DNA of 64,000 bases from Methanobrevibacter ruminantium M1 (GTDB lineage Archaea > Methanobacteriota > Methanobacteria > Methanobacteriales > Methanobacteriaceae): the NCBI RefSeq assembly GCF_000024185.1, contig NC_013790.1, forward strand, positions 2,355,001 to 2,419,000. Direction: 5' to 3'. Both the position numbers and the translations under genes were made by a program. Below the pieces are notes generated by a model. That model ran no database searches. It saw only the letters and a list, made by a program, of their open reading frames with translations, and was not told the DNA's origin. Shown piece after piece: positions 8,170-54,430 of this stretch (within the stretch, counting starts at the first letter, position 1; each line of letters starts with the position of its first letter).

Positions 8170-8554
8170 ATAAAATCACCGAACAAATAATTTTAATTTA
8201 TTAGTATTATCTAATTTAAATTTATTTTTATATTTAATAAATTTAAAGATTTATTCGAAAATTAAAAAAATAGATTTAAAGAATTGTTAAAATTCAAATT
8301 AAGAAGTTGTTTTTGAAAAAGAGTAAAAATATAGAAAAGTTTTTTAAATAAAAAAAGAAAAATAAAATGTTAAAAATAAAAAAAAATGATTTAGAATGGT
8401 AAAAATTAAATAAGAGCAATAATAAACAATCAAATTTAAAAACAAACTATTAAATGAGGATAATATAAACACCATCATATCAAAGAATAATTAAACATCC
8501 TCATATAAAAGGATAATTACACATCATCATATAAAATAGGATAATTACATATCC
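8170..8554. other. Spacer with the 3-prime-end repeat of the large membrane protein
   Basis: 385 bp between the stop of the large membrane protein and the start of the sortase gene. Bases 8170-8455 are plain AT-rich DNA and must include the sortase promoter. From 8456 onward the spacer is a tandem repeat described separately. Confidence 0.5.
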
Positions 8555-8570
8555 TCATATAAAAGAGGAT
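8456..8570. repeat. Degenerate tandem repeat, four units of 26-29 bp, derived from a gene 3-prime end
   Basis: Units begin at about 8456, 8485, 8511 and 8539 and share GGATAATTACACATCCTCAT or close variants followed by ATAAAA. The last unit overlaps the stop codon (TGA, complement of 8555-8557) of the gene on the minus strand, and each unit keeps TATATGA in that orientation. The last unit can also fold ATCCTC(8551-8556)/GAGGAT(8565-8570), a possible terminator stem. Confidence 0.75.
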
Positions 8571-10486
8571 GAATTTAAATCATAATTGTAAATATTATCA
8601 TAATAAGTCTCATTCAATTCACCAATTACCCAATTCGGAGCAAATTCTGTTGGAATAGTCAGAATAAGATTATCCATATTGTTTATGACAAAACTGACAT
8701 CGGAACGTGGAACTTCTAAAAGAACCAAATATTCACTATCCAAATCAGCCAGATTTGACATCCTCTCATAATTAGATAACTTTATGCCATAACTATTCAA
8801 ATAATACTCTAAAGCCTTATTATCATCATAAGAATTAAATACAGAGGCTTTAAGAAGCTCTTCAACATCATTTGTATATGAACTGGTATTTTCATAAGGA
8901 TCCGTAAGGTTTCCCTCAACTAAAGTATTGGACTTGCTTATTGAACTGTCTATTACACCGCTATCTTTAGAGCGCAAAATGGCCAATACAGTAGCTCCGC
9001 TTACATCCGGTTCTCCATTTTGTGAAAAACCAGAATCTTCTTCGGGATTTGAATCGACAGGCATTTTAGAAATATCTTCGCCACCACCCAAATCCTCGTT
9101 ATCCTCAGACTGGTTTTCTACAAGCCCTTCTGAAGATTCGTTAAGGGCTGATGAAGACTCAAAATTGGAATCCTCGTCACCACCATAGGAATAATTGTCC
9201 TTTAGGGAATAGATATCAACGATTGAACCTACCGAAATAAGCCCTGCACTTGCCTGAAGCCGTGAAATGGAAACAGGAACGATTATAGTGTCTACCTTTT
9301 CAAATTGAATGTTTGATAGGACTCTTCCGTCATTATCCCCAACAAACTCATTTGCATCCTTGACAGACATAATAAGGTTTTTGTTTTCATCCCCATAAGC
9401 CAGCATGACCCTTCCAAAATTATCCTTGGAAGAGACTATTTTGGATTTATGATAAGTTCTCCAATCCTTCGTCGCATACATTAAAATATCAATCTTCTTT
9501 AGTTCATTTATATCATTTTCAGATTCTATTTGATTTTTTAAAATATATGCATTCTCATGAGCTTCCAATGGACCTTTATAAAGAGTATTTAATTCATTCA
9601 GCTTTGCATTCTTTTCCAAATTTAATTCATCTTGAAATGGTTGGTATACAAAGAAATAAAACATAGATGATGCCAAAACCAAAAATATCAAGATAAAAAC
9701 AATTTTTCCAAAGCGGCTCTTGGAATTGTCATCCTTATTCAAAAGGCCATCTTTAAAATTAAGCAATTTGCTTTTAATACCATTGGATTTAAGGGAAGCT
9801 TTCTTTGAGTGACTGCTCTTAAAATTAGAATCATCTAAATAATCTTTATCAAAATCAGAAAAATCAGAATTACTTAAATAAGCATCACCATTCAAATAGC
9901 CATTATCCAAATCCTTTTTAAAAGAAAAATCAGAATAACTTTCATCCAAATAAGAATCATTTTTATAATTTTCACCATTATTATCTAAATCATTGTTAAA
10001 GCGTTTATCTGCATAATTCCTACTTTTATGAAAATTCCTATTTCTTCCAAATTCATTATTTAAACCATCATTATTATCTAAATCCTCCATATAGCTCGAA
10101 TCTCTGGGATCCTTAAAGTTTCTATCACTTAAATCATCTCCAAAAATATATTTTGCATATCTTTTATCGACTCCATCCAAATCATATGAGTCATCCGCAG
10201 GATGAGTATAAGTCACCCCTTCAGACAAATCACCAACTGGACGAGTATAAGACACACCCTCAGGCAAATCATCCAAATAATCAGAATTGAAAAATCCAGA
10301 ATCAGAGTCTAAATCAGTCGAATTCTTACGTAATGGAGAATTTTCAGGAACTATATATTCAATAGTTGATTTAGACCTTTTATTCTTAGAATTATTCTTC
10401 TTTCGATTTGAATTTCCTTTAATTTTTGGAGATATATTTTTAACCTTAGAAATTCCTTTCTTAAAGGAATTAAATCGATTAGACAT
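8555..10486 (-). CDS. Large single-pass membrane protein with CpaB/SAF-like segment (DUF515-like)
   Basis: About 643 residues from ATG 10486 (MSNRFNSFKKGISK), chosen over a hydrophobic 18-residue upstream extension because GAGGGTTTGGTGAT precedes it. A low-complexity Asn/Asp/Ser/Lys-rich cytoplasmic stretch (about 40-260) includes a tandem peptide (DLPEGVSYTRP then DLSEGVTYTHP). One membrane helix lies at about 262-280. The outer part includes VPVSISRLQASAGLISVGSI then VDIY, which resembles the SAF domain of Flp-pilus CpaB/RcpC proteins, interrupted by an acidic Ser/Asp insert. I believe it belongs to the archaeal DUF515 family. Function is unknown; a surface-filament or envelope role is inference. 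The gene is followed by copies of its own 3-prime end. Confidence 0.7.
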   Translation of the reverse strand: MSNRFNSFKKGISKVKNISPKIKGNSNRKKNNSKNKRSKSTIEYIVPENSPLRKNSTDLDSDSGFFNSDYLDDLPEGVSYTRPVGDLSEGVTYTHPADDSYDLDGVDKRYAKYIFGDDLSDRNFKDPRDSSYMEDLDNNDGLNNEFGRNRNFHKSRNYADKRFNNDLDNNGENYKNDSYLDESYSDFSFKKDLDNGYLNGDAYLSNSDFSDFDKDYLDDSNFKSSHSKKASLKSNGIKSKLLNFKDGLLNKDDNSKSRFGKIVFILIFLVLASSMFYFFVYQPFQDELNLEKNAKLNELNTLYKGPLEAHENAYILKNQIESENDINELKKIDILMYATKDWRTYHKSKIVSSKDNFGRVMLAYGDENKNLIMSVKDANEFVGDNDGRVLSNIQFEKVDTIIVPVSISRLQASAGLISVGSIVDIYSLKDNYSYGGDEDSNFESSSALNESSEGLVENQSEDNEDLGGGEDISKMPVDSNPEEDSGFSQNGEPDVSGATVLAILRSKDSGVIDSSISKSNTLVEGNLTDPYENTSSYTNDVEELLKASVFNSYDDNKALEYYLNSYGIKLSNYERMSNLADLDSEYLVLLEVPRSDVSFVINNMDNLILTIPTEFAPNWVIGELNETYYDNIYNYDLNSSSFI

Positions 10487-10727: not shown

Positions 10728-11672
10728 TTATTCTACTTCTTCCACTATTTCTGCTTCTTTAACTTCTTTTTCTTCTTTTTCCTTTTCCTCTTCAGCATCT
10801 TCTTTAAGACCAACATCCAAATCCTCATTGGAGATTTGATTGATGGTATCTTTCATGTTCTTAAAGACGTCCTTTACATTAGTAACAGAACTGCTGACCT
10901 TGCTTTCGGTAATCTCCCTAACATTGCTTACCTTATCACTGGCCTTATCCCTATCAAATGTCATGTCATCATCAATAAAGAACTCTAGGAATGTCATGAA
11001 CATGTAAACCAATGCTAAAACAAACAATACTAAAGCAGGAAGGTTAATAGGTCCAATAAATACTTGTATTGGCAAAATCAACAATAAGATCATTAGCGCT
11101 CCAAGACCAATAAGATAATAGTTATCCACTTTAGGATATCTGATTGTGCTTATCATTAAAAATGAAGCAAGCAACATCAAGACAGCTGCAACAGCAATAT
11201 TAAATAATCCGCTTAAATAATAGGTAACCAATATTATGGCTGTTGCCGGAATTGGAAGGCCTACAAATCCCCTATAATTGATTTTATCAGCTATCACATT
11301 GTATCTGGTCAGCCTTAAAAGACCGCAAACTAAAGTAATCATACATACAATAGCTATCAGATATCCGGCCCAAGATGAAATGCTTGAACCTATGGAGTAT
11401 AATATAGCCATAGGAGCTGCACCAAAGGATACAATGTCTGCTAAAGAATCTATATTCATACCAAATCCTAACGGATCCACACGATTAAGTTTTCTAGAAA
11501 CCCATCCATCTACAGAGTCAAAAACAACTGCAAGAAGGATACATAGACTTGCATATATTAAATTGTTATCAATAACCATTAAAATAGCTAAGAATCCAAA
11601 TGCTATGTTTAAAATTGAAATAGCATCAGATACTGCTAAAAAATATCCCATTCCAACACTTTTTAATCTCAT
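10728..11672 (-). CDS. pssA: Archaetidylserine synthase (CDP-alcohol phosphotransferase)
   Basis: Transfers a CDP-activated archaeol to L-serine, giving archaetidylserine for the membrane. The CDP-alcohol phosphatidyltransferase signature is visible as DSVDGWVSRKLNR followed by GFGMNIDSLAD (D-x2-DG-x2-SR ... G-x3-D-x3-D). Ser replaces the usual Ala before Arg. About seven hydrophobic helices follow. The last 85 residues are a charged tail ending in a Glu/Lys-rich run, longer than in most family members. TTGGAGTC precedes the ATG. The serine acceptor is inferred from the archaeal family, not from a residue I can point to. Confidence 0.85.
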   Translation of the reverse strand: MRLKSVGMGYFLAVSDAISILNIAFGFLAILMVIDNNLIYASLCILLAVVFDSVDGWVSRKLNRVDPLGFGMNIDSLADIVSFGAAPMAILYSIGSSISSWAGYLIAIVCMITLVCGLLRLTRYNVIADKINYRGFVGLPIPATAIILVTYYLSGLFNIAVAAVLMLLASFLMISTIRYPKVDNYYLIGLGALMILLLILPIQVFIGPINLPALVLFVLALVYMFMTFLEFFIDDDMTFDRDKASDKVSNVREITESKVSSSVTNVKDVFKNMKDTINQISNEDLDVGLKEDAEEEKEKEEKEVKEAEIVEEVE

Positions 11673-12386
11673 AATTTGACTCCAATATTACTTTAAACAA
11701 ACTCCTTTATTAATTTTTCTAAAAAACTAATACAATAATCTTAATTTAAATATAAGTTACAATATGATATTAATATTAACATCAAATAGTAACCATAAGC
11801 TTATATCCATTTTACGATCCCATCAATTTAATTAGCTTAAATCAAAATTGATTTAAGTTCGTAACAATTTAGCATTTTAAAATCAAAATTGACTTGAACT
11901 TAAAACAATTTACCACTTTAAAATCAAAATTGACCTGAGCGTGTAAAACTTTTTAAATTCATAAAAAATCTTAATAAATTTAATCAATTATTTAAAAAAT
12001 AGATATAAAATTTATTACTTAATTATTTATGTAATTTATTACTATTTAATTTATTCTATTTTTAAGCCTTGAAATATTAAGTTTTTTGTAAAAATCTTAA
12101 AAAAATAGGGTGGAAAAATCCAATTTTTTATGAAAAATTAAAAAACTTAGACTAAAAAAAATTAAAATTTTATTTAAATATTAAACCACTTAAAAGAAAA
12201 ATTTCTAAGATAAAAATTAATAAAAATCCTCCGAAGCCATTAAAATAGAAAAACAATTACGCCACCAATCAAACAAAACAAAATTTTATATTATAATAAA
12301 GATAAAAATTAAAACATAAAAGATAATAATGTAAGGATTTTAATAATTTAAAATTTAATAGGCAAATTCCTTTTAGATGTGTTTAT
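11673..12386. other. 714-bp gene-free region containing a 41-bp phased repeat
   Basis: Divergent spacer between archaetidylserine synthase and the Lys-tailed protein. Its left half holds the 41-bp repeats at 11840-11955. The right half (11960-12386) is AT-rich with no open frame, RNA-like GC island or hairpin that I would call. Confidence 0.5.
11840..11955. promoter_or_regulatory. Phased CAA-N2-TTG array, 41-bp repeat unit
   Basis: AATCAAAATTG occurs at 11840, 11881 and 11922, exactly 41 bp apart. Between these sites lie the related CAATTTAG at 11865 and CAATTTAC at 11906. Core-to-core steps are therefore 22, 19, 22 and 19 bp. The first core extends to a 6-2-6 palindrome AATCAA-AA-TTGATT. 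The bases between cores drift more than the cores themselves. This is seen directly; a role as binding sites of a DNA-bending or regulatory protein is inference. Confidence 0.6.
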
Positions 12387-13238
12387 ATGATTGAAGAGAG
12401 AATACAGATTCTTAGAAGAGCTGCTCAAATCTCCACCGAAGATCGGGAGGAGAAGGTATGGTGTGTCATAGCGGGAAATGACAGATTAGTCGATGATATA
12501 GCCTACAATGCAATCACCCGCCAAGGACAGAGTCCAGATTATCCTTTAGGAGAAAATGTTTCAATTACTTCAAAGCATTCATATAAGAAGTTCGATTGCA
12601 TCATGCTTAAGGGAGAAACCTTAAAAATAAGGGAATTGAAGAATAAAACCCATGAAGAAGGGGGAGCCTCTTTGCAAATCACCACAACATCCCTTGAAAG
12701 GCAGCCAAACTTATTGGTTGTAATAGGTCCCGAAGAGAGCATGAAACGTTTTGTTGGTCAGACAAGCAGACAAGAGGTTAAGATTGATATCTTGCTAGAA
12801 GATCACACCACAGGATTTATCAAATCCGAACCGAAGTCAACAAAGATTCCAAAGTTCTTAAAAAACTTTTTCAATCCAATCATAGAATCAAGCGAAGTCA
12901 TCCTATCTGTTCTATTGATTTCAGTTAAGGATGAAGGAGATATTGATAAGGTAAAAGGAATCAGCCAAGAAAACAGCTTATTTGGAATTGATTTAAAATC
13001 AACAATTCAAGATAAGGAAATAGCTAGGCTGAAAGAAAGAAAAGCAAGAGAAAAGGCTAAAAAAGAGGAAGCTGAAAAGAAAGAAAAAGAAGAAAAAGAA
13101 AAAGCCAAAAAAGAATCCGAAAAGAAAGAAAAAGAAGAAAAAGAAAAAGCTAAAAAAGAAGAAAGTAAAGAAGATAAAAAAGAAATTGAAAAAGGAGAAA
13201 CTAAAGAAGATAAAAAAGAAGAAGATAAAAAAGATTAA
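12387..13238 (+). CDS. Uncharacterised methanogen protein with long Lys/Glu tail
   Basis: A 283-residue protein with no membrane segment. The first 215 residues look globular (MIEERIQILRRAAQIS, WCVIAGNDRLVDDIAYNAI, LLVVIGPEESMKRFVG). The last 70 residues are almost only Lys and Glu, with a near-perfect duplicated 19-residue block (EKKEKEEKEKAKKE twice) that would form a charged helix. I think the globular part matches a methanobacterial family of unknown function (possibly DUF2120) but cannot confirm that. The ribosome site before ATG is weak. A phased repeat array lies about 430 bp upstream. Confidence 0.65.
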   Translation: MIEERIQILRRAAQISTEDREEKVWCVIAGNDRLVDDIAYNAITRQGQSPDYPLGENVSITSKHSYKKFDCIMLKGETLKIRELKNKTHEEGGASLQITTTSLERQPNLLVVIGPEESMKRFVGQTSRQEVKIDILLEDHTTGFIKSEPKSTKIPKFLKNFFNPIIESSEVILSVLLISVKDEGDIDKVKGISQENSLFGIDLKSTIQDKEIARLKERKAREKAKKEEAEKKEKEEKEKAKKESEKKEKEEKEKAKKEESKEDKKEIEKGETKEDKKEEDKKD

Positions 13239-13599: not shown

Positions 13600-14670
13600 T
13601 TGAGTATTTTTGGAAATGAAGACGCTATTGAAATTGAACCAACTAGAGTCGTAAAAAATAGTTTAGGTATTGACTTAGGTACCTTAAACACTGTAATTGC
13701 AAAACCATCTGGAGACAAATTTGACTTATATCAAATTCCTTCAGTAGTTGCAGTCAAAAGAGATGATCCTACTGCTGTTCTTGCAGTTGGAGAAGAAGCT
13801 AAAAAAATGTTAGGAAGAACTCCTGAAGACATCATTGCTGTAAGGCCACTTAAAAAAGGTGTAATTGAAAACATTGCACAGGCACAAGCCTTGCTCATTA
13901 GAGCAATGGAAATAGGCATTAACGAAGGAGAAACTGTAGAAAGAATAGTAATCGGAATTCCTGGAGACTCTTCTGAAGTTGAAAAGAATGCTGCAGAAGA
14001 AATCGGTAGAAAAGCAGGTGCTGAATATGTTTTAGTCATCAGCGAAGGATTGGCTGCAGCTATCGGTGCAGGATTACCTATTGCAGAACCTATGGGAACC
14101 ATGGTTTTAGACATTGGAGCAGGATCCACCGACATCGTTGTCATTTCCCTTGGAGGAATCAATGACATAGAAACAGTAAGATGCGGAGGAGACGACATCG
14201 ACAATAGAATCGTCGAATTGATTGAAGAAAAATACAATGTTGCAATAAGCATCCACGATGCAGAAGCCGCTAAAATCGAAGTGGGTATGGTACACTGCAG
14301 TGAAGAGTTTGAAAACTTGAATTATGAAGTAATCGGAAAATCCTTAGAAACCAACAGACCTAAAAAGGTCGTTATCGATTCCATGCTAGTTGCAGATGCA
14401 GCTGAACCAATCATTAAACAAGTAATCGGCGGATTAAACCTCATCTTAGAAAGATTACCAGCTGAATTAATGATGGGAATCTATAACAACACCGTTGCAG
14501 TCGGAGGAAGTTCCAGATTAAGAGGAATCAAAGAAAGAATCTTTGATGAATCTGAAATCCCTATTAAAATTTCCGATGACCCAATGACAGTAGTAGCTAA
14601 AGGAACTGCTATTGTTGCTGCCGAACCATTAGCTTTAGAACCTGAAGTACGTTTAAAAGCTATGAAATAA
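13600..14670 (+). CDS. mreB: MreB-like actin-family cell-shape protein
   Basis: Actin-fold ATPase forming filaments that guide wall synthesis; in Methanobacteriales it is presumed to organise pseudomurein growth. The 356-residue protein has the phosphate-1 loop GIDLGTLNTVIA near residue 23. It also has VRPLKKGVI, IPGDSSEVEKNAAEEIGRKA, phosphate-2 MVLDIGAGSTDIVVISLGGI, and AVGGSSRLRGIKERI in the adenosine region. A 16-residue N-terminal extension precedes the first strand. The start is TTG at 13600, fixed by GGAGG 7 nt upstream. It is monocistronic, and an inverted repeat at 14755-14779 may end the transcript. Confidence 0.92.
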   Translation: MSIFGNEDAIEIEPTRVVKNSLGIDLGTLNTVIAKPSGDKFDLYQIPSVVAVKRDDPTAVLAVGEEAKKMLGRTPEDIIAVRPLKKGVIENIAQAQALLIRAMEIGINEGETVERIVIGIPGDSSEVEKNAAEEIGRKAGAEYVLVISEGLAAAIGAGLPIAEPMGTMVLDIGAGSTDIVVISLGGINDIETVRCGGDDIDNRIVELIEEKYNVAISIHDAEAAKIEVGMVHCSEEFENLNYEVIGKSLETNRPKKVVIDSMLVADAAEPIIKQVIGGLNLILERLPAELMMGIYNNTVAVGGSSRLRGIKERIFDESEIPIKISDDPMTVVAKGTAIVAAEPLALEPEVRLKAMK

Positions 14671-15215: not shown

Positions 15216-15568
15216 AAAAAGACCCCCTAAAAAAGTATTATATATTAATATAAATCTTGTAATTATTATAATTGTTGAAAAATAACAAAATTTAACACAC
15301 TCAAATCAAAATTGACCTAACCCTAATAAAAATCCCTAAAAAAACACCAAAGTTTAACACACCAAAATCAAAATTGTTTCAATATTAAAGCAATTTTGAT
15401 GTGAGAAAAGTGAGAAAATCCCCCAATTTACAAAAGTATTTAAGAAAGAAATAATTAAGTATTAACAAAAAAGATTTAAAAATTTTCACACCCTTGATTT
15501 AATTTTAATAAAATCATTTTAAATCTTAAAAATAAAAATAAGAAATAAAATCAAAGGAAAGTAAGTAA
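15216..15568. other. Divergent spacer with a second phased CAA-N2-TTG array
   Basis: 353 bp between the antitoxin-like gene and rnhB. The repeat array at 15283-15400 occupies the centre. The remainder is AT-rich and should contain promoters for both flanking genes. Confidence 0.45.
15283..15400. promoter_or_regulatory. Phased CAA-N2-TTG array with 62-bp direct repeat
   Basis: Cores start at 15286 (CAAAATTT), 15307 (CAAAATTG), 15348 (CAAAGTTT), 15369 (CAAAATTG), 15380 (CAATATTA) and 15391 (CAATTTTG). Spacings are 21, 41, 21, 11 and 11 bp, all close to whole helical turns. A 62-bp direct repeat underlies it: CAAAATTTAACACAC at 15286 recurs as CAAAGTTTAACACAC at 15348, each followed by AAATCAAAATTG. 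It is the same motif as the arrays near 11840 and 42284. Confidence 0.55.
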
Positions 15569-16228
15569 ATGAACACACTAGGATTAGATGAAGCAGGTAG
15601 AGGTCCCGTTCTTGGACCAATGGTAGTAGCCGGAATAGTCATACCTGAAAAGAAAGAAAAGATAATAGAAAGAATGGGAGTGAAGGATTCCAAAAGGATT
15701 ACCCCAAAAAGAAGGGCTGTGCTCTATAGAAAACTAACCAGAATGTTTGATTATGAAACTGTGGAAATCAGTGCAAAGGACATTGATCTATTAAGGGCAA
15801 AAGGAGTAAACCTCAACCAGATTGAAAAGTTGGCCATGATGAGAATCATTGCAAAGCTTAAGGCCGACACCATAATCATAGATTCCCTTGACATAAAGGA
15901 AGGAAGGCTAGAGGAAGAGATGCAAAATTTTGTTGGAGAAGGCTCAAAGGTAATTGCAGAGCATAAGGCAGATGACAAATATATAGTTGTAGGAGCCGCT
16001 TCAATCATAGCCAAAACAAAAAGGGATGAAATAATCAACCAAATCAATAAGGAATACATAAGGTCCACTGGAAACAAGGATGGAATCGGTTCCGGATACC
16101 CAAGCGATCCAAAGACAAAGAACTTCCTTAAAAACTACAAATACGATGAAATGCCAGACTTTGTTAGAAGAAGCTGGGGAACTGTTCAAAGAATAAAAGA
16201 AGCTGAAGAAGCTGAAAAATCATTGTAA
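15569..16228 (+). CDS. rnhB: Ribonuclease HII
   Basis: Cleaves the RNA strand of RNA-DNA hybrids and removes misincorporated ribonucleotides. The 219-residue protein opens MNTLGLDEAGRGPVLGPMVV with the first catalytic Asp-Glu (DEAGRGP). DSLD (about residue 109) and the basic HKADDKYIVVGAASIIAKTK stretch follow, then the C-terminal GSGYPSDPKT. This is the standard archaeal length. A phased array lies in the upstream spacer. Confidence 0.95.
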   Translation: MNTLGLDEAGRGPVLGPMVVAGIVIPEKKEKIIERMGVKDSKRITPKRRAVLYRKLTRMFDYETVEISAKDIDLLRAKGVNLNQIEKLAMMRIIAKLKADTIIIDSLDIKEGRLEEEMQNFVGEGSKVIAEHKADDKYIVVGAASIIAKTKRDEIINQINKEYIRSTGNKDGIGSGYPSDPKTKNFLKNYKYDEMPDFVRRSWGTVQRIKEAEEAEKSL

Positions 16229-20259: not shown

Positions 20260-21165
20260 ATGATTACCATACTTTCCGGAGGCACAGGAACTCCCAAACT
20301 AATACAAGGAATAAAAGAAATCTACCCTGAAGAGGAAATATCTGTCATCGTAAATACAGTGGAAAACGAATACTTTTCAGGAGGATATGTAGCTGCAGAC
20401 TGTGATACAGTTATGTACACCTTTGCAGATATGATTGACGACCAATTCTTCTATGGAATTATAGGAGATACATTTAAGATAAGAAACATCCTAATTGAAA
20501 TGGGAACTACAGAGCTTCTTAAAATAGGAGATATGGATCGAGCAATCAAGATTCAAAAGACAATCCTTTTAGAGGAAGGAAAGACCCTTAGCGAAATTGT
20601 AGAACATCAAAAGAACAAGCTAGGAGTTAAAGCAAAGATAATCCCAATGAGCGATGAGGACTCTGAAATAAAAATAATAACAAAAGAGCATGGCGAACTG
20701 GATTTCCATGACTTCCTAATCAAGCACCAATGCGAAGGGGAAGTTCTTGAAGTAAAATACAGCGACGTTAAGCCAAGCCCTAATGTGATTGGAACAATTA
20801 AAGATGCAGATAAGGTAATCATAGGTCCATCCAATCCGATAACCTCAATAAGGCCAATAATTGCAATTGAAGGGGTTGAAGAGGCACTTAAGGAAAAGAA
20901 AGTCATTGCAGTCTCACCATTTTTAGGAGAAGCCGCTTTCAGCGGACCTGCTGCCAAATTCATGAATGCATTTGGATATGAGGCATCATCTAAAGGAGTT
21001 GCTGAATTATACAAACCTTTCTTAGACACATTTATAATAGACAATGAGGATAAAGACAAAAAGGAAGAATTAGAAAAAATAATTCCAAATATAGTAGTTG
21101 CAAACACCTTTATGAAAACAATTGAAGATAAGATCAATCTTGCAAAAGTGGTTTTAGAACTTTAA
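20260..21165 (+). CDS. cofD: 2-phospho-L-lactate transferase (F420 side-chain formation)
   Basis: Transfers the activated phospholactyl (or enolpyruvyl) moiety to the deazaflavin Fo to give F420-0. The start at ATG 20260 gives MITILSGGTGTPKLIQGI, the canonical CofD N-terminus; an in-frame GTG at 20251 would add three residues and GAGTG precedes the ATG. Other signatures are GGYVAADCDTVMYTFADMID, FYGIIGDTFKIRN and IIGPSNPITSIRPI. The 302-residue length is standard. The last 30 bases are part of a perfect 50-bp tandem repeat. Confidence 0.95.
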   Translation: MITILSGGTGTPKLIQGIKEIYPEEEISVIVNTVENEYFSGGYVAADCDTVMYTFADMIDDQFFYGIIGDTFKIRNILIEMGTTELLKIGDMDRAIKIQKTILLEEGKTLSEIVEHQKNKLGVKAKIIPMSDEDSEIKIITKEHGELDFHDFLIKHQCEGEVLEVKYSDVKPSPNVIGTIKDADKVIIGPSNPITSIRPIIAIEGVEEALKEKKVIAVSPFLGEAAFSGPAAKFMNAFGYEASSKGVAELYKPFLDTFIIDNEDKDKKEELEKIIPNIVVANTFMKTIEDKINLAKVVLEL

Positions 21166-21264
21166 AAAAATAATGAAAACAAATGAATCTTGCAAAAGTG
21201 GTTTTAGAACTTTAAAAAAATAATGAAAACAAATGAATCTTGCAAAAGTGGTTTTAGAACTTTA
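21136..21264. repeat. Perfect 50-bp tandem repeat of the cofD 3-prime end (2.6 copies)
   Basis: Units start at 21136, 21186 and 21236; the first two are identical over all 50 bases and the third matches for 29. The unit begins AATCTTGCAAAAGTGG and contains the last nine codons and the stop of cofD. Complete identity points to very recent duplication. Confidence 0.92.
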
Positions 21265-30973: not shown

Positions 30974-31020
30974 CATTAAAAATTAACACCATAAAATAAT
31001 CTTGTTAAAGAATAATTGTC

Positions 31021-31104
31021 TTAAATTACTCTTTTTAGAATAAAGATATCTTAAATTACTCTTTTTAGAATAATAGATGTCTTAAATTACTCTTTTTAAA
31101 AATA
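31021..31104. repeat. Three-copy tandem repeat behind hemA
   Basis: CTTAAATTACTCTTTTTAGA or its shortened form starts near 31020, 31049 and 31081, about 30 bp apart, in the convergent spacer between hemA and the AAA ATPase. Unlike other repeats here it does not include the stop codon. Confidence 0.7.
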
Positions 31105-31168
31105 GTTAAAAATTAAAGTAAAAATTAAAATTATAAAAATAGTTAAAAATTAAAATTAGGAATGTAAA

Positions 31169-41734: not shown

Positions 41735-42007
41735 TTAAAGCCTTGAATAATACTCTAAAATTGATGAAATATCGGCTAAAGCCTCGTCTGTGTCTCCTTT
41801 TTCCATTGCATTTTTAATGCAGTTATCTAAATGACCTTCTACAATAATATATCCGACCCTATGCAAAGCAGATTTAGAAGCATTTATCTGCATTAAAATA
41901 TTTTCACATGGAATATCTTCATCAATCATACGATCAATGGCATTAAGTTGGCCAATAATCTTTTTAAGTCTTCTATGTAGATTTTCAGAATCCATACATT
42001 CTTTCAA
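41735..42007 (-). CDS. csoR: CsoR-family copper-sensing repressor
   Basis: A 90-residue all-helical DUF156 protein that leaves DNA on binding Cu(I). The Cys-His-Cys ligand set is visible: Cys34 (DIPCENILMQ), His59 (VEGHLDNC) and Cys63. The N-terminal RRLKKIIGQLNAIDRMI matches the family's DNA-contact helix. It lies directly upstream of copA on the same strand, with operators before each gene. Confidence 0.93.
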   Translation of the reverse strand: MKECMDSENLHRRLKKIIGQLNAIDRMIDEDIPCENILMQINASKSALHRVGYIIVEGHLDNCIKNAMEKGDTDEALADISSILEYYSRL

Positions 42008-42261: not shown

Positions 42262-42420
42262 AAACAATTTTAACAGCCTTAATCAATATTGTTACGAAAT
42301 AAAAGCAATATTGTTACGAGATAAAAGCAATTTTCTAGCGATATCAAAACAATATTGTAGCGAGATTAAAACAAGTTTGTTATTAAATTAAAACAATTTT
42401 ATATCTTTAAATCAATTTTT
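42262..42420. promoter_or_regulatory. Phased array of eight CAA-N2-TTG sites, six exactly 22 bp apart
   Basis: Core starts: 42265 CAATTTTA, 42284 CAATATTG, 42306 CAATATTG, 42328 CAATTTTC, 42350 CAATATTG, 42372 CAAGTTTG, 42394 CAATTTTA, 42413 CAATTTTT. Steps are 19, 22, 22, 22, 22, 22 and 19 bp. The linkers partly repeat as well (TTACGA or TAGCGA followed by ATAAAA). It ends about 80 bp before the downstream ribosome site. Direct observation; function is inference. Confidence 0.7.
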
Positions 42421-42513
42421 ACTTATCATACTAAGGTTAAATTTAAATACAATTAAAATAAATCAAATATTAGGCAAATAAAGAAAAATACTTAAAAAAA
42501 TATGAGGTGTAAT

Positions 42514-42963
42514 ATGTCTAGTGAAAAACGAAATAGCAAAGATCAATCCTACTTAGGCTTTGAACTTATTGAAGTGGAGGACTACTATCTCCTATCAAAC
42601 ACAGAAAAGCTGCTTGAAACAGTTAAAAAAGACTGGTTTAAAAGCCTAATGGACGAAATAAGAGAATTGGTTGGAAAGCATTATCCAGACTTTGTAATTT
42701 ACTTAGCCTATGTTGATCATGGAGATGACGGTACAATTTTAGGCTATGTGAATGTAAGGGAAGATGACAATAAGAGAGATGAAGAGTATTCAGAAGTTGC
42801 TCTAAACAAAGAAATGCTTGAGATATGTGAAAAACACAAAGAAGATAAAATATTATTTGTAACAATTCCAAGAAAGAGAAAAAGCTTTATAAAGTTAAAA
42901 AAAGGAAGCATCAGAGAACATTTCAAAGAGGCTCTATTAAAATTAGGTGCAAAGCCACTATAA
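42514..42963 (+). CDS. Hypothetical basic protein downstream of the phased array
   Basis: Taken from ATG 42514 (MSSEKRNSKDQSYLGFELIE), set by GAGGTGT 5 nt before it; 149 residues. I recognise no domain. It is soluble, mixed alpha/beta by composition (FVIYLAYVDHGDDGTILGYV then KILFVTIPRKRKSFIKLKKG), with a basic C-terminal third that could contact nucleic acid. It has no same-strand neighbour. Confidence 0.65.
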   Translation: MSSEKRNSKDQSYLGFELIEVEDYYLLSNTEKLLETVKKDWFKSLMDEIRELVGKHYPDFVIYLAYVDHGDDGTILGYVNVREDDNKRDEEYSEVALNKEMLEICEKHKEDKILFVTIPRKRKSFIKLKKGSIREHFKEALLKLGAKPL

Positions 42964-53651: not shown

Positions 53652-54356
53652 CTATTCCTGATTAAAAACAAACTTATCAATAGCCTCTGCCACTCCATCA
53701 CCATACTTATTCTCGCAAACATAATCAGCAATCTCTTTTAGCTCATCACATGCATTGGCCACTGCAACCTTAAATCCTCCTGCAAGGAGAAAATCAATAT
53801 CATTTTCGCTATCTCCAATGCACATAATATTCTCAACATTATATCCAACGAGATTAGCCAATTTTGCAAGCCCTGTTCCCTTATCGACCGCAGGATCGGT
53901 AAGATGAAGTGCAAAACCGCTGTCATAGACCTCTACATCAAAGTCCTTCAACATCTCCTTAAGTGGCTCTGAACTCATATTCTTATAGAAAGTTATTTCT
54001 GAAACCCTTGCATCGGAATCTTCCACTATCCTAAATGGAATGTCTTTTCCAAACTTATCAAATAGAAAATCATAAGCCTTTTGAGCTTTAGAGATATCTC
54101 CTAAGACGATCACTCGATTGTCATTATATCCATCATGATAGATAACTCCCCCATTTTCACAAACAAGGCCTCCAGTAGTCCCTACAAGGGTTGCCACAGC
54201 ATAGGAAAAGTGGGAAATGTTTCCAGTTGCAATAATCACTGGAATTCCAGCATCCTCTGCCTTTCTAAGAGCATCCAATGCACTATGGCAGACTCTTCTT
54301 CTGCCATCCGTAATTGTTCCGTCAACATCAACAGCTATTGCTTCTATTTTAACCAT
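53652..54356 (-). CDS. Phosphoglycolate phosphatase, archaeal HAD type
   Basis: HAD IIB hydrolase, annotated in archaea as phosphoglycolate phosphatase or sucrose-phosphatase-like. It has motif I AVDVDGTITDGRR with the nucleophile Asp, motif II IIATGNISHFS, Lys of motif III in DKGTGLAKL and motif IV CIGDSENDIDFL. The start is ATG 54356 (MVKIEAIAVDVDG); an in-frame GTG three codons upstream belongs to a repeated leader sequence. Confidence 0.9.
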   Translation of the reverse strand: MVKIEAIAVDVDGTITDGRRRVCHSALDALRKAEDAGIPVIIATGNISHFSYAVATLVGTTGGLVCENGGVIYHDGYNDNRVIVLGDISKAQKAYDFLFDKFGKDIPFRIVEDSDARVSEITFYKNMSSEPLKEMLKDFDVEVYDSGFALHLTDPAVDKGTGLAKLANLVGYNVENIMCIGDSENDIDFLLAGGFKVAVANACDELKEIADYVCENKYGDGVAEAIDKFVFNQE

Positions 54357-54430
54357 AAAAACCACTTAAAACGATTTTATTTAACCATAAACCACTTAAA
54401 ACGATTTATTTTAACCATAAATCACTAAAT
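54346..54430. repeat. Three-copy repeat of a gene 5-prime end and leader
   Basis: TTTTAACCATAAAAACCACTTAAAACGATT begins near 54347, and shortened or near copies begin near 54378 and 54410 (period about 31 bp; strings here cut to the shared core AACCATAAA-CCACTTAAAACGA). The first copy contains the complement of the phosphatase start codon (CAT at 54354-54356). Confidence 0.75.

Follow-up and report, generated by a model that had tools for sequence, protein, structure and literature searches.

The array at positions 11824 to 11944 of the window (the whole stretch of 64,000 nucleotides of Methanobrevibacter ruminantium M1 DNA that was analysed) probably, at about 0.78, belongs to a family of cis-regulatory operator arrays that is spread over the genome and serves one putative regulator. 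The family combines a unit shared by many promoters, a position beside core promoters and conservation at orthologous sites. The array itself consists of six CAAWWT cores, at 11824, 11843, 11865, 11884, 11906 and 11925, in steps of 19, 22, 19, 22 and 19 bp. An earlier note on this DNA had claimed a 41-bp repeat, with CAAAATTG at 11843, 11884 and 11925 and CAATTT at 11865 and 11906, and all five were found in place; the CAATTT at 11824 is additional to that note and adds one more 19-bp step. Tandem Repeats Finder reported 11839-11938 with a period of 41 and a score of 135. Two covariance models were built from sequence only, R1 from 19-bp doublets and R2 from 22-bp pairs, and R2 matched the array at genome positions 2366840-2366870 (26.8 bits, E 1.4e-5) and 2366880-2366911. 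The array and the elements around it are as follows.

11824..11944, plus strand: array of CAATTT/CAAAATTG cores (cores read, Tandem Repeats Finder, model R2)
10728..11672, minus strand: archaetidylserine synthase-like gene (pssA), facing gene 1; open reading frame with its start 152 bp from the array
11797..11808, minus strand: candidate TATA box of the leftward gene, GGATATAAGC as written on this strand, read from the sequence
11945..11956, plus strand: candidate TATA box of a rightward transcript, AAAACTTTTTAAAT, just beyond the array, likewise a reading of the sequence
12387..13238, plus strand: uncharacterised protein, facing gene 2; open reading frame kept in 16 of 19 genomes of the genus

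The leftward frame is a putative archaetidylserine synthase, a name that the earlier note had given it and that fits the sequence. For the 12387..13238 protein, Pfam, NCBIfam and fold comparison returned nothing informative (mean pLDDT of the structure, 70), and an MreB/Hsp70-like gene follows it at 13600. In the congeners G007 (R1, E 5.1e-8) and G008, pssA has the same downstream neighbour and a counterpart of the array stands between the two, with units that differ.

The same 19- and 22-bp steps had been reported near 42284, and a second array was indeed present there, with cores at 42265, 42284, 42306, 42328, 42350, 42372, 42394 and 42413 spanning 42265-42413 in steps of 19, 22, 22, 22, 22, 22 and 19 bp. 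R2 matched it at genome positions 2397281-2397314 (34.9 bits, E 3.8e-8) and 2397306-2397338. Upstream of RNase HII, window positions 15288-15400 contain a third site of the family, absent from the earlier note: a palindrome at 15369 and a related copy at 15307.

42265..42432, plus strand: second array, ending about 70 bp ahead of the next start codon; R2 matches
42502..42963, plus strand: open reading frame for a 153-aa protein of no assigned family, facing the second array
41735..42007, minus strand: CsoR-like metal-sensitive repressor gene flanking the second array opposite the 42502 frame (PF02583)
15369..15398, no strand assigned: 30-bp palindromic site CAAAATTGTTTCAATATTAAAGCAATTTTG with two cores 22 bp apart (R2, 37.9 bits, E 4.3e-9)
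15569..16228, plus strand: RNase HII gene facing the 15369 site (PF01351, E 4.3e-53)

The 153-aa protein has weak similarity to another array-facing gene (locus L068). The longest CAAWWT chains at 19/22 steps in the 64-kb window are the arrays at 11824 and 42265, with 6 and 5 cores, and such a chain never exceeded 3 cores in 300 Markov-shuffled windows. Rfam gave zero matches within the window. Tandem repeats were also observed at 21136-21264 (a perfect 50-bp repeat in 2.6 copies, overlapping the end of an open reading frame), at 8457-8575 (an unrelated 26-27 bp repeat in 4.3 copies between the 7408 and 8555 open reading frames), and at 30992-31105 and 54345-54426 (30-bp repeats in 3.8 and 2.7 copies, of a different consensus).

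The window covers 2355001-2419000 of a genome that forms a single contig of 2,937,203 bp. Across this genome, about 50 array loci of 2 to 16 units each were counted among the matches listed, collected by exact-pattern searches, targeted stretches and then chaining. The consensus unit is the 19-bp TSAMATCAATTTHACRNNN, and the 22-bp variant CAAWWTTGTTACGAAATNAAAA is the same unit with three bases inserted between CAA and TACGA. When 118 19-bp units were picked with CAATTT.AC....T.A...CAATTT held fixed, the free positions gave the consensus TSAMAT CAATTT HAC R NNN. CAA-N2-TTG, which had been taken as the shared motif, does not serve as the common core, which is CAATTT; it does occur, confined to the 22-bp units. 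Isolated 22-bp pairs form long palindromes, such as the 40-bp CACATCAATTTTGCTTCAACATTGAAACAATTTTGATGTG at 2548705. Read from the consensus, a TNACA-like element appears to repeat inside arrays every 11 and then 8 bp, 19 in total.

Pairs of CAANNTT numbered 55 at 22 bp against 33 in the reversed control and 79 at 19 bp against 53, and inspection of the matches listed indicated that this excess is made up of arrays. The histogram of pair distances, which the earlier note had proposed as a check, was not flat: over 48 loci, CAAWWTT pairs numbered 56 at 19 bp, 25 at 22, 34 at 38 and 34 at 41, with any other distance at 8 or fewer, the 19- and 22-bp peaks in this genome being partly selected for because the loci were picked by motif. 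At loci of relatives found by models trained on the M1 genome, the counts were 19 at 19 bp, 9 at 20 and 6 at 22 in the same genus, and 68 at 19 bp and 1 at 22 in a second genus, where the 22-bp step is nearly absent. The arrays lack strict helical phase, since distances of 19, 38 and 57 bp do not fit a 10.5-bp turn, and this counts against the operator reading.

R1 gave 128 matches in the M1 genome (E<=0.1) and R2 gave 131 (E<=1), and R1 matched 35 and 18 times in the closest congeners, G008 and G007, respectively. Matches of R1 at E<=0.001 occurred in 70 of 138 genomes of the family, some of them incomplete, and in 2 of its 17 genera. The copy number of arrays differs among species. An exact-pattern search of virus contigs for arrays returned none.

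The genes that face arrays in M1 include those for topoisomerase I (topA), RadB, MCM, the primase large subunit (priL), RNase HII, an XPD/DinG-like helicase, an OB-fold protein, a TatD DNase and a Cas4-like nuclease; the pilus genes for T2SSF/TadC, a class III pilin and an A24 prepilin peptidase; and the CsoR gene. RPA also lies downstream of an array, but about 1 kb off, and the site that an RFC-like gene faces is a weak one. At least 8 facing genes of M1 encode IIEFQ/IEHHS-type motifs and a C-terminal helical tail as in Rpn nucleases, with weak support for the Rpn family (TIGR01784, E 2.2e-4, one gene). Facing genes in the second genus encode RhuM (four), Rpn (three), a restriction endonuclease, UvrD, the antitoxin-like SocA/Panacea, DUF4062 and DUF4143 proteins and Topo VI-B. 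Second-neighbour genes, used as controls, are mainly metabolic or housekeeping, and the enrichment of replication and pilus genes is strong, given the assumed background sizes. A second, partial MCM-like coding region was seen at genome positions 412349-413050 (L156), with 55% identity to the main MCM.

One alternative is that the arrays are operators of another kind, on whose AT-rich units a chromatin-like or xenogeneic silencing protein nucleates and keeps recently acquired defence, nuclease and pilus genes off. The largely accessory character of the facing genes in the second genus (RhuM, Rpn, restriction and antitoxin-like) next to housekeeping second neighbours speaks for such silencing. 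However, the core genes mcm, priL, topA, radB and RNase HII of M1 have the sites too, and the unit has a defined consensus beyond AT richness, and we consider silencing unlikely. The targets of the proposed operator arrays are themselves heterogeneous and differ between the genera, with pili in one and defence-like genes in the other, which counts against the operator reading.

Gene orientation was examined at arrays of both genera. Of the 39 arrays in M1, 19 had divergent flanking genes, 17 had co-directional ones and 3 had convergent ones; for the 41 in the second genus the corresponding numbers were 21, 20 and 0, with arrays picked by motif, gene calls made mechanically by simple ORF calling and several facing genes more than 200 bp off. 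Against an assumed 25% of convergent regions, this deficit has P 8e-6 in the second genus and P 6e-3 in M1. Among 55 array-gene pairs lying 40-130 bp apart, the best TATA-like octamer mostly falls 20-50 bp off the array edge, and arrays occur in either orientation (31 of 55 on the same strand as the gene). Such orientation and spacing speak for regulatory sites ahead of the genes rather than for terminators or transcribed leaders. A tRNA or ncRNA context was considered and rejected; two tRNAs lie near arrays.

Sites also recur at orthologous promoters while their units turn over. The full 22-bp pair is present at the mcm promoter of three species, and a degenerate form, TAACGAAATCATAACAATTTTTCAA, occupies the same place in several other congeners; the site block is conserved above its flanks and below the TATA region, and was absent from the mcm promoters examined outside the genus. 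At prepilin peptidase, congeners often have one unit-like sequence adjoining the TATA box, and M. ruminantium has about 12 units. Most of 33 congener sites examined lie at promoters orthologous to array promoters of M1, namely those of RPA, radB, TadC, pilins, prepilin peptidase, DUF192, the XPD/DinG-like helicase, TctA, Rpn-like genes and a putative moaC (named from sequence). A single promoter-proximal site appears ancestral at mcm and prepilin peptidase, and tandem duplication would have stretched such single sites into arrays in the M. ruminantium lineage. In congeners, the prepilin-peptidase leader (L387-L398) also carries conserved blocks, ATTGTCTTA..TTTTTTAAGAC, GGGTCCTAAAATAGGATT and TTGGAGGTTTCCTCTTGTAT, about 130-430 bp downstream of a ribbon-helix-helix (RHH) gene, and these look like a structured leader RNA.

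These results bear on whether the arrays are simply minisatellite- or MITE-like, that is, tandem repeats, neutral or selfish, that have multiplied through slippage and copying and happen to persist in intergenic DNA. Perfect multi-unit duplications, such as the 57-bp repeats at 77847-78151 and 873647-873932, and the variable copy number among species would suit this, and local duplication clearly adds to array length at some loci. Nevertheless, such repeats should fill convergent regions too, yet these hold the few arrays counted above, and neither a preferred distance to the TATA box, nor recurrence at orthologous promoters with unit turnover, nor one site conserved at mcm and prepilin peptidase where a species has no array at these genes would be expected. 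Neutral minisatellites should show no gene-context bias and no orthologous conservation; such a bias and such conservation were both found, and we regard this origin as quite improbable.

A further candidate reader is Orc1/Cdc6, an initiator that would also act as a transcription factor, like Orc1-2 in Sulfolobales. Some units contain TTTTACACTT, which is also found in the origin boxes upstream of cdc6 (TTTTACACTTGAAA), and the regulon resembles the Sulfolobus damage response with Ups pili (PMC9738581). However, the origin-box core CACTTGAAA and the C/T-rich CTCTCTC flank are not kept in the units, whose positions 10-13 vary, and the unit does not share a consensus with TTTTACACTTGAAA plus CTCTCTC upstream of cdc6. 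Similarly, the Sulfolobus ANTTTC falls at the conserved core only in units with C at position 7 (29 of 118), and recognition by Orc1/Cdc6, whether at origin boxes or at an Orc1-2 type of damage-response element, is very improbable. A probable replication origin was located upstream of cdc6 (genome position 1) at 2935688-2937203 (L384:4689-6204), with boxes TTTTACACTTGAAA and TTTCCAGTGAAACGCA flanked by CTCTCTC-like runs.

It is scarcely credible that the common regulator is the RHH protein whose gene lies next to the prepilin-peptidase array: this gene is adjacent and syntenic in several congeners, and such proteins often bind tandem short sites, but relatives were found in only 9 second-genus genomes though most genomes there carry arrays, others are present in genera without arrays, so that its distribution does not match theirs, and the gene that lies downstream of the array is a different one. 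A CRISPR array, with repeats of about 23 bp or more and unique spacers, was ruled out, the 19/22-bp units being contiguous and without spacers.

Returning to operator arrays with a common regulator, the earlier proposal that a single DNA-binding system, and not independent slippage, underlies the repeats is, on indirect grounds, well supported by about 50 loci, 70 genomes, promoter proximity, the scarcity of arrays in convergent regions and their repeated occurrence at orthologous promoters. We infer protein binding, and binding by a single protein. Each 19-bp TSAMATCAATTTHACRNNN or 22-bp CAAWWTTGTTACGAAATNAAAA unit would offer one sequence-specific protein either a site or two half-sites; several copies of the protein would line up next to one another just upstream of the TATA box, and bound arrays would set transcription of one promoter or of two, often divergent, jointly. 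Archaeal activators commonly bind upstream of the core promoter, whereas repressors frequently sit on the TATA box or start site. Because the arrays end upstream of the core promoter and not over it, we lean somewhat towards an upstream activator rather than a repressor. The gene set, comprising replication/recombination, type IV pilus, PD-(D/E)XK/Rpn-like nuclease and restriction/antitoxin-like genes, suggests a DNA-related trigger, and the regulon may answer DNA damage, DNA uptake or competence, or replication phase. A DUF4062-type protein with a C-terminal Sta1/Lrs14-like winged helix (L303:2806-4314) faces an array in M1, and a relative of it faces an array in the second genus (L361); we take it as a lead, a candidate regulator.

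On a broader and more tentative reading, to which we give clearly less than even odds, gut Methanobrevibacter would possess a global system in which one regulator reads homotypic 19/22-bp arrays and co-regulates replication/recombination, type IV pilus (possibly for DNA uptake) and nuclease/defence genes, as the equivalent, in a methanogen, of an SOS or competence regulon. To our knowledge, methanogens have few defined global regulons, and efforts at methane mitigation target rumen Methanobrevibacter. An operator family common to mcm, primase, radB, topoisomerase, pilus and nuclease genes would offer a handle on a master regulator, and whether these archaea mount a coordinated response of the DNA-damage, competence or cell-cycle kind becomes directly testable. 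The arrays also show site gain, duplication and turnover between close species. The papers searched on Methanobrevibacter repeats, operators and motifs gave no description of them; the M1 genome paper, searched by term, does not mention intergenic regions or promoters.

Among bacterial systems, MetJ met boxes, omega heptads and paired NrdR boxes are tandem short sites beside promoters that are read cooperatively. The arrays differ from these in having a 19- or 22-bp unit, up to about 16 units, archaeal promoters and no known protein. TK0271-type archaeal regulators reportedly use palindromic upstream sites at aromatic amino acid synthesis genes; compared by type of site and by gene set, the upstream palindromes are alike and the genes unlike. 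The origin recognition boxes of Cdc6/Orc1 are also repeated AT-rich elements, and a few units contain TTTTACACTT, but these boxes cluster at the origin with a C/T-rich element, whereas the arrays lie at promoters genome-wide and have a different consensus. The nearest functional parallel is the damage response of Sulfolobales. In Saccharolobus islandicus, Orc1-2 controls pili and other damage-response genes via a short promoter motif (DDRE, ANTTTC; PMC9738581), and the arrays are similarly proposed to be archaeal elements through which pilus or DNA-exchange genes and others come under one regulator. By contrast, the Orc1-2 elements are single hexanucleotides of another consensus with a known regulator, and the arrays are tandem 19/22-bp units.
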